From: Pelagibacteraceae bacterium AG-422-I02 | GTDB lineage: Bacteria > Pseudomonadota > Alphaproteobacteria > Pelagibacterales > Pelagibacteraceae | Assembly (NCBI GenBank): GCA_003213555.1 | Contig: QCMS01000006.1 | Location: forward strand, 1 to 61,678 | Length of the DNA stretch: 61,678 nt | Direction: 5' to 3' | In this document: piece after piece, positions 1 through 3,871 of the stretch | Position numbering within the stretch: position 1 is the stretch's first letter | How the letters are laid out: every line of letters begins with the position of its first letter | The notes under the pieces: generated by a model | The model's database searches: none | Told to the model about the DNA's origin: nothing | The model's input: only the letters and a program-made list of their open reading frames with translations | Position numbers and translations under genes: made by a program

Positions 1-510
1 GAAATCTTTTTAAATAATATTGGAGAGCCAAATAAATTATTTAAAATTAAAGAAAATGGAGAGCTAAAGGAAATTGATTTAGAAATTAATTCTGAACCTA
101 ATGGACTTGGTACAGGCGCAGCTGTAGCCGATATCGATAAAGATGGTATTTTAGAATTATTAATCTCACACGGAGAAACAGGCAACCAAATACTAACTCT
201 TTATAAAGCTGATATTAAAAAAAATAATAATTATTTAAGAATTAAACCTTTAAATAAAAATGGAGCACCCGCAAGAGGTGCCACGGTAACGCTTACTTCT
301 AATTTAAGAGAACACTCTAAAACAATCGATGCAGGATCAGGATATTTATGTCAAATGGAGCCTGTTGCTCATTATGGACTTCGGGAAGGTGAAAAAGATT
401 TTAAAGTTTCAATTAAGTGGACAAACGGAAAGACTAATAATTATAAAATAACAAAAACTGGTAAGACTTATATTTTTAAACAAAGTAAGATGACTATCTC
501 GCCATCTTAA
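1..510 (+). CDS. FG-GAP/ASPIC-UnbV repeat protein, C-terminal part (5' end outside window)
   Basis: Open from base 1 to a TAA at 508-510, giving the last 169 residues of a longer protein. Residues 35-54 look like the end of an FG-GAP/VCBS repeat, with the acidic Ca-binding-type loop DIDKDG. Residues about 72-160 match the ASPIC/UnbV pattern, including GAPARGATVTL, GSGYLCQ and a HYGL motif. Family members are usually exported or cell-surface beta-propeller proteins of unclear role. The gene runs tail-to-tail into the next gene and overlaps it by 17 bases. The missing N-terminus prevents any statement about a signal peptide or repeat number. Confidence 0.85.
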   Translation, partial: EIFLNNIGEPNKLFKIKENGELKEIDLEINSEPNGLGTGAAVADIDKDGILELLISHGETGNQILTLYKADIKKNNNYLRIKPLNKNGAPARGATVTLTSNLREHSKTIDAGSGYLCQMEPVAHYGLREGEKDFKVSIKWTNGKTNNYKITKTGKTYIFKQSKMTISPS

Positions 511-1192
511 TAAATATATCACCCATTCCAATATTCATTTCTTCTAAAGGAATATCATTTTTGAAAGCACAGAATTTTCCGGTGATTTCATTAGACTCTA
601 TTTTTTTAATATCTGCTTTTTGACATTTTCTTGCTTCGTATAAAATTCCTATTACTAACTTATTATCAACCACATGAACTTCTTCTTTATTTAACTTTTG
701 ACCATTACAGAAATAATTTCTGTTTACTTCCTTTGGAAAATCTTTTTTTGTGCATGGATTATCTATTAAGAGGACATCAATCATTTTTGGGCCATCCTTA
801 AATTTATGTTTGATTTTTTTAACCTTAGTGTAATTCATGAGGTCACAAGAACATGGCCAACAACATCTGTAAAGTTCACCACAAATATTTTTTTGTGTTC
901 TTAATTCTTTAACAAAAATAAAATCTGGTTTTTCTCCCGGGTTAATCAATGAACCTGATACGGGACAATATAATTTATTATACTCAATAAATTCTTCATA
1001 TGTTAAATCTTGGTCAATTAAATATTTAAAAAATCTTGGTCCAGCTGCATTTCTATTACTGTCAGGAAAGATTTTGGTCCAGTTTTTTACAAGATTTTCA
1101 TAGTAAAATTTTTTTTGCTGATAGTTAACCTCTGCGTATATCGAAGAGCAAAGAATAAATAGAAAAACTGATACTTTAATTATAAATTTCAT
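494..1192 (-). CDS. exported Cys-rich protein of unknown function (232 aa)
   Basis: The N-terminus (MKF, a hydrophobic stretch, then a likely cut after Ala20 in SSIYA) is a classical signal peptide, so the mature protein should be periplasmic. Cysteines cluster at positions 76, 104, 110, 111, 114 and 116, including the motif CCWPCSCD and a CPVSG motif at 76-80. This spacing suits metal binding or several disulfides, but I do not recognise the family. A second Cys pair region lies in the C-terminal half (NPCTKKD, YFCNG, ARKCQ). Its 3' end overlaps the ASPIC/UnbV gene by 17 bases on the opposite strand. The start ATG at 1192 is the natural one because it opens the signal peptide. Confidence 0.8.
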   Translation of the reverse strand: MKFIIKVSVFLFILCSSIYAEVNYQQKKFYYENLVKNWTKIFPDSNRNAAGPRFFKYLIDQDLTYEEFIEYNKLYCPVSGSLINPGEKPDFIFVKELRTQKNICGELYRCCWPCSCDLMNYTKVKKIKHKFKDGPKMIDVLLIDNPCTKKDFPKEVNRNYFCNGQKLNKEEVHVVDNKLVIGILYEARKCQKADIKKIESNEITGKFCAFKNDIPLEEMNIGMGDIFIKMAR

Positions 1193-1253
1193 TTTAAATA
1201 TTTAATCATTTTTAAAATAATTACGCTGCGGTTTTCTTGCTATTTTTGTGATA

Positions 1254-1403
1254 TCAATTTTTTCTTCTAATTTTTTTAATTCCGCAATCTTTACATTTTA
1301 TCGTTTCAGTTGAACCGCCTAGGCTAAAACTATAATTAATATCAACTTTTTCATATCTGTGGATACCTATTTTACAAAACAGTAAATACAACCGTCTAAT
1401 CAT
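1254..1403 (-). CDS. candidate 49-aa small protein with CxxC (zinc-ribbon-like)
   Basis: A short ORF starting MIRRLYLLFCKIGIHRYEK and ending TIKCKDCGIKKIRRKN. The layout (hydrophobic or basic start, Cys-x-x-Gly-His-like turn, then CxxCG near the end) resembles small zinc-ribbon proteins of phage and bacterial origin, but this is a weak resemblance. No clear Shine-Dalgarno lies before the ATG at 1403. It fills most of an otherwise unexplained gap of about 340 bases between two minus-strand genes, which supports its being real in a genome this compact. Function is unknown. Confidence 0.45.
   Translation of the reverse strand: MIRRLYLLFCKIGIHRYEKVDINYSFSLGGSTETIKCKDCGIKKIRRKN
1371..1400 (+). 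promoter_or_regulatory. possible sigma-70 promoter for the 18-aa peptide
   Basis: TTTACA (1371-1376), an 18-base spacer and TCTAAT (1395-1400) would start transcription near 1407, about 42 bases before the ATG at 1449. Matches are moderate and A+T richness makes chance hits common. Confidence 0.3.
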
Positions 1404-1448
1404 AATTTAAACAAAAATATTATTAATGATATTTTAGGAGGTAATTAA

Positions 1449-1505
1449 ATGTCTGGTTGGGAAATATTAATTGTTTTAGCCGTAATTTACGCAATAACTA
1501 ATTAA
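1449..1505 (+). CDS. candidate 18-aa hydrophobic micropeptide
   Basis: The ORF encodes MSGWEILIVLAVIYAITN and stops at TAA 1503-1505. A perfect AGGAGG Shine-Dalgarno sits at 1436-1441, seven bases before the ATG; such a strong site is rare elsewhere in this window, where many genes lack one. Residues 5-16 form one short hydrophobic helix, so the peptide would probably sit in the inner membrane. It lies alone on the plus strand, convergent to the TRAP permease gene that ends at 1535. It could be a small membrane protein or a leader-type peptide; nothing downstream on the same strand suggests the latter. Confidence 0.55.
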   Translation: MSGWEILIVLAVIYAITN

Positions 1506-1534
1506 ATTAAAAGGGAATAAAAATTGGAAAAATT

Positions 1535-3871
1535 TTAATTTGGACTTTCTTTTCCAAATCTAAAATTCGTGTATCCAAAAGTTAATAAAAAAATTAACGC
1601 AATTGGATAAACTATATTTTTATTTGGTCTATCTGGATTTTCAATTTTAAAATTACTTATGATGTCACCCATTTGAATACCAGATTTTTTTGCCTCTCCT
1701 TTCCAATTTAATTTGTCTACAGTGAGTTGATCATTCTGATCTGCTAATGTTACTCCATATTCTTCTAAATTATAATTATTTTCAAATTTTCCTTTATCAA
1801 TCACGAATAATTTATATCTTTCTCCGTATTCAGTTACTCGAGTAACCTTAATGTGAACTTCTTTTGAGGGATCGAAAGATAAATTTTGAATACTTTCTGC
1901 TGAGAGTTTTTGTTCATTAAATTTTGGGTAGAATTTACCTAATACATAGTCGGGAGCTAAAAATGATAAAGATATTATTAAGAAAGCTATAGTCTCGTAC
2001 CACCTTAATTTATTTATAAACCATTGTTGTGTTGCTGCAGTGAAAACTAAAATACCTATTAATGAAGTGACTATTACCAATATTGCCTGCCAGATACTAT
2101 CTACTCCAATTAATAAAAGTTCATGGTTAAATAAAAAGACGATCGGTAAAATTCCTGTTCTTAAACTATACCAAATAGCTTGGAGTCCTGTTCTTAAAGG
2201 ATCTCCACCAGAAATTGCTGCTGCTGCATAAGACGCTAAACCTACAGGAGGAGTTACATCGGCCATCAGTCCAAAATAAAATACGAATAAGTGAACAGCA
2301 ATTAATGGAAAAATAAAACCTGAAGCATTTCCAACGTCTACTAAAACAGTGGCCATTAGTGAAGCCACCACCACATAGTTTGCGGTTGTTGGAAGACCCA
2401 TTCCAAGAAGTAAACAAAGAATAATAGTTAATAAAATTAATATGATTACATTATCTCTTGCTATTGTTTCGATGACTATAATTAAATTAGTACTTAATCC
2501 TGTTGAACCAACCGCTCCTACTATTATACCTGCTGTGGCAATCGCTATTCCAACTCCAACCATATTAATTGCTCCTTTTTGAAGTCCAACAATAGTTTGG
2601 TTCCACCATTCGATTAAGCCGGTTTTATAATCTGAGTTTTTAATTATACGATTTATCAAATTCACAATGATTAAAGAAATAGTTGCATAAAAAATCGAAA
2701 AACCTGCCGTGTATCTCATGTAGACAAGTAGAAAAATTAATACAAAAATTGGTATTAGAAAATGTAATCCAGATAAAAAAGTTTTCTTAAGATGAGGTAC
2801 GTCTGAATCATCCATTCCTTTGAGTCCTAGTTTAAGAGCCTCTAGATGAGATATATAAAATAAAGCAATGTATGAAATGATAGCTGGTAAAAAAGCATGT
2901 TTGACAACTTCAAAATAGGTTACACCAATAAAACTTGCCATTACAAAAGCTGCCGCTCCCATAACCGGTGGCATAATTTGACCATTTACAGATGATGAAA
3001 CTTCAATTGCACCAGCTTTCTCTTGAGAGAAACCAGTTTTTTTCATAATCGGAATTGTAAAAGTTCCAGTGGTGACAGTATTAGCAATTGAAGAACCTGA
3101 AATCATACCAGTCATTCCAGAACCTAAAATTGCAGCTTTAGCAGGTCCTCCTCGCATCTTACCCACCATTGCGAATGCTAAATCTAAAAAATATTTTCCT
3201 CCGCCTGCTGTTTCTAACAATGCTCCAAAAAGAACGAATAAAAATATGAAATCAACAGATACGCCTATAGGTATTCCAAAAATAGCTTCTTGATCAAACC
3301 ATTGGAAGCCAACTAGTCTTTTAACAGATAGACCACCGTGAGAAATAATATCTGGCGCATATTTACCAAAATAAGAAAATAAAAGAAAACAGATAGCAAT
3401 TATTACTAATGGTAATCCGATAGCTCTTCTTGTGGCCTCTAAAAGTATTAAAATACCTGTTGCCCCAATAATAAGCTCTACAGGAACTTTAAATCCGAAT
3501 ATCTCTTTAACTAAAAGTATCCCGCCCCTATTAACAAGATCGTCATAAAAAAAATAAATATAAAGGCAACAGAATGCAGCGACAATACTTATAAGAATAT
3601 CAAAAACTGATATTTTCTTTCCTCGTACAACAGGAAAGATTAAAAATGTAAGTGTGAGTGCGAAACCTAAATGTATTGCTCTAGCAGGTAAACCTTTGAA
3701 CATTCCAAAGTTAAACCAAAAAGGAAAAGGAGAAGCATACCAAAGTTGAAATAATGTCCAAATAATTGCTATTCCAAATACTATTTTTAAATGGATGCCT
3801 GATAAATTTCTAGTAGGAGAAATATCTTCTTGAATTTTGTCTTTAATCTTACTTTGAATTGTTTGATTCAT
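1535..3871 (-). CDS. TRAP transporter fused permease, TAXI type (4TM/12TM)
   Basis: A 778-residue polytopic membrane protein fusing the small (DctQ-like) and large (DctM-like) TRAP permease subunits, as is usual for TAXI systems. Many hydrophobic helices run from about residue 28 to 640. The central signature GSGMTGMISGSSIANTV followed by TTGTFTIPIMKKTGF is typical of the large-subunit repeat, and a second such region carries GMGLPTTANYV. The C-terminal 130 residues include a soluble segment ending in a PDZ-like stretch (KKSGIQMGDIISNF) and one last helix. It should import an organic acid or amino-acid-type substrate using an ion gradient together with the binding protein encoded just upstream. 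Substrate unknown. Confidence 0.92.
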   Translation of the reverse strand: MNQTIQSKIKDKIQEDISPTRNLSGIHLKIVFGIAIIWTLFQLWYASPFPFWFNFGMFKGLPARAIHLGFALTLTFLIFPVVRGKKISVFDILISIVAAFCCLYIYFFYDDLVNRGGILLVKEIFGFKVPVELIIGATGILILLEATRRAIGLPLVIIAICFLLFSYFGKYAPDIISHGGLSVKRLVGFQWFDQEAIFGIPIGVSVDFIFLFVLFGALLETAGGGKYFLDLAFAMVGKMRGGPAKAAILGSGMTGMISGSSIANTVTTGTFTIPIMKKTGFSQEKAGAIEVSSSVNGQIMPPVMGAAAFVMASFIGVTYFEVVKHAFLPAIISYIALFYISHLEALKLGLKGMDDSDVPHLKKTFLSGLHFLIPIFVLIFLLVYMRYTAGFSIFYATISLIIVNLINRIIKNSDYKTGLIEWWNQTIVGLQKGAINMVGVGIAIATAGIIVGAVGSTGLSTNLIIVIETIARDNVIILILLTIILCLLLGMGLPTTANYVVVASLMATVLVDVGNASGFIFPLIAVHLFVFYFGLMADVTPPVGLASYAAAAISGGDPLRTGLQAIWYSLRTGILPIVFLFNHELLLIGVDSIWQAILVIVTSLIGILVFTAATQQWFINKLRWYETIAFLIISLSFLAPDYVLGKFYPKFNEQKLSAESIQNLSFDPSKEVHIKVTRVTEYGERYKLFVIDKGKFENNYNLEEYGVTLADQNDQLTVDKLNWKGEAKKSGIQMGDIISNFKIENPDRPNKNIVYPIALIFLLTFGYTNFRFGKESPN

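Follow-up and report, generated by a model that had tools for sequence, protein, structure and literature searches.

An 18-codon gene found at different sites in Pelagibacteraceae genomes encodes a predicted single-helix membrane micropeptide resembling the TatA/TatB transmembrane helix

The locus and the micropeptide ORF

The window analysed is the stretch of 61,678 nucleotides at positions 1 to 61,678 of contig QCMS01000006.1 from Pelagibacteraceae bacterium AG-422-I02. Close to one end of the window, a short gap between two minus-strand ORFs, one of 49 amino acids and the other coding for a fused TRAP permease, contains a very small plus-strand ORF (Table 1). Direct reading bore out the original prediction of an AGGAGG seven bases before an ATG, followed by an 18-codon ORF standing alone on the plus strand of this gap. 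The product is small and hydrophobic and, judged from size and composition, of single-transmembrane character. It is predicted to form one membrane-spanning helix similar to that of TatA/TatB, with a glutamate at position 5 followed by 12 mostly hydrophobic residues and Asn18. The gene for a 232-aa cysteine-rich protein lies on the far side of the 49-aa ORF, and this protein was found in 16 of the 54 micropeptide loci compared.

Table 1. Features at the micropeptide locus (coordinates are those of the window)
Feature	Position	Strand	Remarks
232-aa cysteine-rich protein	494-1192	-	No Pfam family at E <= 0.01
49-aa ORF with CKDC motif	1254-1403	-	No Pfam family at E <= 0.01
Gap with micropeptide gene	1404-1534	.	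131 bases, TRAP stop to start of 49-aa ORF
Shine-Dalgarno AGGAGG	1436-1441	+	Spacer TAATTAA (7 nt) to ATG
Micropeptide ORF MSGWEILIVLAVIYAITN	1449-1505	+	18 codons, ATG at 1449, stop TAA at 1503-1505; read from sequence
Fused TRAP permease (DctM + DUF3394)	1535-3871	-	Pfam; convergent with micropeptide

The ribosome site had been described as unusually good, and few starts in the window are indeed preceded by a complete AGGAGG. As a signal within a single sequence, the pairing of AGGAGG with ATG is not above chance. Two cases with a distance of 4-10 nt were present in the window against 1.60 expected from dinucleotide-preserving shuffles, and at least two were reached in 44 of 100 shuffles. 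The status of the ORF as a gene therefore comes from conservation between genomes. A simple scan of positions 1200-1700 called neither a plus-strand sigma-70-like promoter nor a terminator, promoter-like sites in this region being at chance level, and positions 1150-1700 yielded no Rfam match at E <= 1.

Conservation and coding evidence

That the ORF represents a new SAR11 membrane micropeptide gained support from related genomes. Its start, frame, Shine-Dalgarno sequence and length were kept across the copies in the genus, and codon-level comparison of these relatives gave a dN/dS of approximately 0.23. In 38 copies with a TCN codon for Ser2, columns -12 to -4 (GGRGGTAAT) were nearly invariant apart from the A/G column; bases -30 to -13 and the bases past the stop were variable. 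For the 31 distinct coding sequences with TCN at Ser2, a mean pN of 0.145 and a mean pS of 0.452 were obtained, with a Jukes-Cantor ratio of 0.23. Entropies of 0.51, 0.28 and 0.83 were determined for codon positions 1, 2 and 3, respectively, the third being the most variable (permutation p = 0.0005). Judged from these substitution patterns, the micropeptide is under purifying selection.

The codon for Ser2 belongs to either of two families. Among 72 distinct copies it was TCN in 39 and AGY in 31, the remaining two having Thr, and among the 54 copies that could be placed on the chromosome it followed the site exactly, with TCN in 32 of 32 copies beside the TRAP gene and AGY in 22 of 22 elsewhere. 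One copy (L017) has undergone a nonsense change from TGG to TGA at codon 4.

These data bear on the explanation that there is no peptide gene here, and that the conserved sequence serves as a regulatory element, a terminator or a leader in which an ORF occurs by accident. Conservation of the surrounding DNA among close relatives, extending to as much as 161 nt, would be expected of such an element, as would a region in which no plus-strand promoter or terminator was called. It is nonetheless highly improbable, given the codon-level pattern with its low dN/dS, the conserved position of the stop, the retention of Ser2 across TCN and AGY codons and the retention of the peptide where its surroundings differ. 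At the window site there is, moreover, no same-strand downstream gene for a leader to control.

The selection of nine further genomes of the genus rested on DNA similarity that falls for the most part upstream of the ORF, in and next to the place where the 49-aa ORF starts. Each of the nine possesses a tiny hydrophobic ORF of diverged sequence, preceded by a Shine-Dalgarno sequence, at the matching place. A glutamate near the start was retained in seven of the nine diverged peptides, the other two having no glutamate at all, and one of the nine genomes (L177) additionally carries a broken micropeptide copy. The TRAP gene adjoins in six of the nine and lies approximately 1.2-1.4 kb away in G110, G088 and G070. 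The micropeptide is very probably encoded by a real, conserved gene, whose transcription and translation are predicted.

Distribution among genomes

The genus was surveyed over 169 genomes, first with DNA (a query of 161 nt) and subsequently with a peptide profile. Profile matches at E <= 0.02 were obtained in 57 genomes, with one match each. The next-best matches in the genus began at E 0.1, and five inspected at E >= 0.1, namely three proteins of greater length and a 52-codon frame that occurs in two genomes, look unrelated. Fourteen genomes of the genus have a completeness of at least 90%. A clear copy was found in four of these (G006, G065, G078 and G137), and a fifth, G073, has a divergent copy that was missed by the profile.

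Across the family, 56 of 297 sampled genomes matched the window peptide at E <= 10, and these belonged to five of 14 genera. An exact DNA pattern for MSGWEIL and the two following residues was present in 17 of 397 genomes of the order and absent from g4, the genus sampled most within that set, while a similar pattern among 385 genomes of the class was confined to the window's own genome. A scan of 84,980 species, with one genome each, matched 75 stretches. Fifty-three of these are ORFs of 18-21 codons from Pelagibacteraceae/Pelagibacterales with, by eye, a Shine-Dalgarno-like site, and the other 22 are unrelated. At the sensitivity of the scan, which would miss diverged members, the micropeptide family appears to be restricted to the Pelagibacteraceae/Pelagibacterales.

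Several of the pattern matches outside SAR11 were long proteins starting MSGWEI, which we take by recognition to be PnuC-like (NMN transporter). Kinship with PnuC was rejected, the common start being taken as a coincidence between first helices. A phage origin was likewise rejected. A 371-base query (window 1190-1560) gave no phage match, a 20-aa family member had no tblastn match in phages at E <= 10, and in eight viral contigs matching the DNA pattern the frames are unrelated and 10 or 51 residues long. A viral scan derived from the profile returned 12 stretches, none of which was confirmed at tblastn E <= 1e-3, a strict threshold for 18 residues.

Few free-living bacteria have smaller genomes than SAR11, and genes as short as this one usually go unannotated. 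The presence of an 18-codon gene in about a third of the genus genomes suggests that this streamlined gene set has been partly missed.

Chromosomal sites

Placed copies numbered 54, made up of the 53 ORFs from the species scan and the window. A TRAP permease gene adjoins 32 of them, and its stop lies 80-99 nt after the micropeptide ATG in 30 of these 32; the other 22 copies are elsewhere. A second group lies near a permuted tmRNA gene, with alpha_tmRNA called at four of five loci searched (L048, L187, L086 and L036), while the fifth, L041, represents part of the L086 contig. The micropeptide ATG is approximately 30 nt past the tmRNA end in L048 and farther from it in the other loci of this group. 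The tmRNA-end sequence GGGGcacctRgcaacagaacGCCCC recurs after the micropeptide and elsewhere in these loci, in the manner of attachment-site repeats. A third group follows tRNA-Ser(GGA), the tRNA 3' end being found upstream in 18 of 23 loci (some genomes counted twice). This end lies less than 80 nt upstream in eight loci, representing five distinct genomes, and G073 is a sixth. In several other tRNA-Ser loci a degenerate tRNA 3' end, recognised by eye, directly precedes the micropeptide promoter, and about 2 kb of other genes separate it from the intact tRNA-Ser. L049/L093 and L053/L123 are among the few copies outside these three groups. No neighbouring gene common to all sites was seen in the locus clusters.

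Further small elements were noted at some of these loci. Several of L036, L041, L086, L099, L113, L123, L144 and L186-L189 have the tmRNA 3'-end hairpin in two or more places; some of the hairpin copies have a promoter-like TATAAT before them and no evident ORF, and the hairpins may be sites of attachment or belong to a family of small RNAs. L131 has three tRNA-Ser 3' ends, at -4893, -3378 and -2053 from the micropeptide, and resembles an array of tRNA-Ser islands. A second micropeptide with a Shine-Dalgarno sequence, of 22 aa, was found in L079, L098, L109, L131, L132, L134 and L148, approximately 40-110 nt downstream of the first on the opposite strand and convergent with it. By eye it reads MHWILLGIAIG(I/L)V(I/F)YL(A/G)DKY(I/L)F in L079 and L132 and is similar in the others. 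Another tiny hydrophobic ORF with a Shine-Dalgarno sequence lies downstream on the plus strand in L093, starting MGADILLISMGALIVLTWIWNNA (by eye).

The fused TRAP permease gene is present in 134 of the 169 genomes of the genus, whether or not these carry the micropeptide. None of 40 further TRAP loci in the genus had a hydrophobic tiny ORF preceded by a Shine-Dalgarno sequence within 420 nt of the TRAP stop. The next feature at these empty loci, by reading, was the 49-aa ORF (13 loci), a thioesterase 3' end (13), the gene for the 232-aa protein (10) or another same-strand gene (4). The gap between TRAP gene and 49-aa ORF was 6-10 nt in 13 empty genomes (L202, L215-L225 and L232), as against 131 in the window. 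Nine of the 40 TRAP-empty genomes have the micropeptide elsewhere (G002, G003, G005, G014, G073, G085, G104, G109 and G111). Conversely, the tRNA-Ser site is empty in the window's own genome and in others, the CCA running straight into the downstream sequence, and in G073 the micropeptide lies between the tRNA-Ser CCA and that same downstream sequence.

Comparison of occupied with empty TRAP and tRNA-Ser sites delimits the micropeptide unit, which is some 120-160 bp long and present or absent as one piece. The repeats suggest that site-specific recombination at tRNA and tmRNA ends may be involved, with repeated loss as an alternative. Genes that relocate within these genomes would have a very small representative in the micropeptide gene, which is found at TRAP, tRNA-Ser and tmRNA sites.

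A role as an obligate accessory of the TRAP permease was considered and rejected on the grounds that 22 of the 54 copies are not beside the TRAP gene, several of them being close to tmRNA or tRNA-Ser, and that the TRAP gene also occurs without the micropeptide. For the same reasons the adjacent TRAP transporter is an unlikely target.

The choice of sites also raises the matter of a toxin-like or selfish stabiliser, that is, a membrane-active peptide of type I toxin size, maintained as a single copy, often at tRNA or tmRNA hot spots, and controlled by an antisense RNA. The size, hydrophobicity and patchy presence of the micropeptide would suit such an element, as would its location near tmRNA-end repeats and tRNA-Ser, the single profile match per genome at E <= 0.02 and the nonsense codon of L017; convergent transcription of the TRAP gene could, in addition, yield an antisense RNA at the window site. 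Any antisense promoter or RNA is hypothetical, however, no Rfam match having been found there, and purifying selection on the peptide argues the other way. Ribosome sites of type I toxins, in addition, are usually masked. Overall we consider this explanation improbable.

Likeness to the TatA/TatB helix

A micropeptide profile (A2) was compared with 177,635 distinct PDB sequences and yielded a single match at E <= 10, to the TatA of entry 9E07 (E = 4.2e-4). The alignment, of SGWEILIVVaIiYaIv on SGWELLLVVGVIVLLF (residues 5-20), is ungapped and places Glu5 of the micropeptide on Glu8 of TatA. The reversed profile gave no matches to the PDB; of two column-shuffled profiles, one returned nothing and the other a lone match, a taste receptor, at E 1.2. 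Entry 9E07 is TatAC of N. salsuginis and, according to passages of PMC13323110, the TatA helix there occupies the TatB site on TatC, with E8 of TatA contacting TatC equivalently to E8 of TatB.

The arrangement of a glutamate, 12 mostly hydrophobic residues and a break was found in 58 of 60 distinct peptides, most of the glutamate carriers having been gathered by a pattern or profile requiring or preferring this residue. The 12 residues following it are free of D, E, K, R, N, Q, S and P in 56 of these 58 peptides and include one Ser in the other two; Gly, Thr and His are tolerated within the run. The run is followed by Asn in 39, Ser in 8, stop in 4, Gly in 4, and Glu, Lys and Thr in one each. 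The N-terminus is usually MSG followed by Trp, Leu, Phe or Val.

SAR11 Tat proteins, which were located on suspicion of such a likeness and found among the best local alignments, have a comparable layout. SAR11 TatB and TatA present E or Q, 12 hydrophobic residues and Gly. One SAR11 TatB starts MPQIGWLEILAVVIIAILVLGPKE, and the syntenic variant of the micropeptide in another genome, MEILAVVILLVLVM, is identical to this TatB at 9 of 12 residues from the glutamate on. Among 1,019 distinct SAR11 ORF N-termini, taken from six-frame ORFs of 40 aa or more, just seven had E or Q before a hydrophobic run of 11-14 residues starting within the first ten residues; all seven are TatA or TatB and every run is of 12 residues. 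Since Tat loci were fetched for this set on purpose, the presence of Tat among the seven is uninformative and it is the absence of other proteins that is informative. With a looser layout (run of 11-14, Gly counted) applied to 30 alphaproteobacterial Tat loci, 36 of 559 ORFs were retained, 35 of them Tat by reading. Local alignment of the micropeptide with a non-redundant set of 1,034 SAR11 ORFs, from which micropeptide frames had been removed, ranked eight Tat proteins at 1, 4, 6, 7, 8, 10, 13 and 14, and with the reversed micropeptide Tat proteins ranked from 12 to 435.

Controls place limits on this likeness. Tat ranks remained high when the 12 residues were shuffled with MSGWE kept, which indicates a likeness in layout rather than in residue order, and one of eight full shuffles also ranked several Tat proteins high (4, 6, 10, 11 and lower). 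In the 559 alphaproteobacterial ORFs the reversed profile placed seven Tat proteins in the top 10 against eight for the forward profile, and five against four in the top 5. Part of the likeness is therefore composition, and profile ranking in the alphaproteobacterial loci, having failed its reversed control, was dropped as support. Several alphaproteobacterial TatA have His instead of E or Q at the polar position, and other Tat proteins in the 30 loci have yet another polar residue. Comparison with SAR11 TatB/TatA by hhalign gave a probability of 21% and an E value of 0.001.

Nor, by its sequence, is the micropeptide a member of the TatA_B_E family. The hinge (FG or LGPK) and amphipathic helix are absent, the 58 glutamate-bearing peptides ending 0-4 residues after the 12-residue run. 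Searches by blastp with SAR11 Tat proteins against ORFs of at least 45 aa, in 406 kb around the 54 copies, detected no tat gene at E <= 1e-4. Pfam, NCBIfam and PHROGs gave no match at E <= 10 for two longer members, of 20-21 aa.

The same observations allow for a genuine single-helix micropeptide that, like other known small membrane regulators, binds some other membrane protein, such as a transporter or a respiratory or cell-envelope complex, with the Tat likeness having arisen by convergence of short helices rich in Val, Ile and Leu. Conservation and a free-standing gene are independent of Tat, composition alone accounts for part of the Tat ranking, and no Tat gene is adjacent to the copies. 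We regard this as possible but rather unlikely, in view of the sole PDB match being a TatA in the right register, of a layout that was exclusive to Tat among the sampled SAR11 N-termini, and of the different neighbours at the various sites, among which no gene common to all was seen.

A proposed role at TatC

TatC was found in 113 of the 169 genus genomes, so that a target would be available, and in 12 of the 14 near-complete ones. Its detection was equal in genomes with the micropeptide (39 of 57) and without it (74 of 112), and co-occurrence consequently says nothing. The micropeptide is patchy, whereas TatC looks core. Neither TatA nor TatC was found in the window's own genome, which is 68% complete.

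Passages of PMC13323110 describe three TatA/TatB places on TatC in the Tat core, filled by one TatA and two TatB, and report that substrate is bound only by complexes containing TatB. When TatB is in excess, TatA is also reported to be displaced from the complex, which then holds less of it, and growth on SDS, which depends on Tat, is blocked. With regard to the polar residue, PMC5201420 states that no CueO export was detectable in E. coli when TatB E8A or TatA Q8A was produced at native levels, and that co-immunoprecipitation of TatB with TatC was lost in the E8A variant; it also cites earlier work in which TatB E8A was active.

The best reading of these data, which we hold tentatively, is that the micropeptide gene encodes a peptide that copies or mimics the N-terminal transmembrane helix of TatA/TatB, stands free of the rest of that protein and docks at TatC. 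Among specific functions, this one appears the best supported by the sequence comparisons. The genome comparisons show a conserved coding gene, a variety of sites with empty counterparts and a Tat-like layout, whereas insertion into the membrane, binding to TatC and an effect on Tat are inferred. The gene, which would be translated, forms a self-contained unit of approximately 120-160 bp and occupies different sites in different Pelagibacteraceae genomes. Its product would most likely insert into the inner membrane as a short helix, and the glutamate that matches residue 8 of TatA/TatB would dock it at the TatA/TatB site on TatC. As the micropeptide ends where the Tat hinge would begin, it would fill the site and, lacking the amphipathic helix, do none of the work of TatA/TatB. 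Given the three places on TatC and the effect of excess TatB, a helix without the amphipathic part should reduce or gate export, and occupation of the site by the micropeptide may thus tune down or gate the Tat pathway.

A more specific proposal, which we consider unlikely though worth stating, is that of a natural Tat decoy. An 18-residue stand-alone helix of TatB type would compete for the three TatC slots, encoded by a relocatable, single-copy micro-gene of approximately 120-160 bp at tRNA/tmRNA hot spots or beside a transporter. If so, no smaller modulator of a protein translocase may be known. If the micropeptide is a Tat helix mimic, it would also provide a natural single-helix probe of the competition between TatA and TatB at TatC, as described from recent structures of the core complex (PMC13323110), and regulation of Tat by a micropeptide would become directly testable.

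Comparison with known systems

Among the literature matches listed, which were mostly outside subscription journals, no published report of the micropeptide or of a free-standing Tat helix was seen. Small membrane peptides acting on larger membrane proteins are known as a kind.

The micropeptide is like TatA/TatB (PF02416) in that a glutamate heads its short helix and is followed by 12 mostly hydrophobic residues and a break. It has Ser-Gly-Trp-Glu in common with N. salsuginis TatA and GW(x)EILAVV in common with a SAR11 TatB. It differs from them in its length of 18 residues and in having no hinge, amphipathic helix or nearby tat gene.

Type I toxins of the Ibs kind are hydrophobic peptides of about 18-19 residues encoded by their own monocistronic genes, as is the micropeptide. 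Unlike them, the micropeptide has a conserved N-terminal Gly-(Trp)-Glu and a fixed layout of glutamate plus 12 residues; the toxins are paired with an antisense antitoxin, which for the micropeptide would be hypothetical.

With small single-transmembrane regulatory proteins the micropeptide shares one short membrane helix and a very small, often unannotated gene. KdpF, CydX, AcrZ and MgtS are proteins of this type and, at about 29-49 aa, are larger than the micropeptide. Several such proteins are encoded in the operon of their partner. Unlike these operon-bound membrane proteins, the micropeptide has different neighbours from genome to genome.
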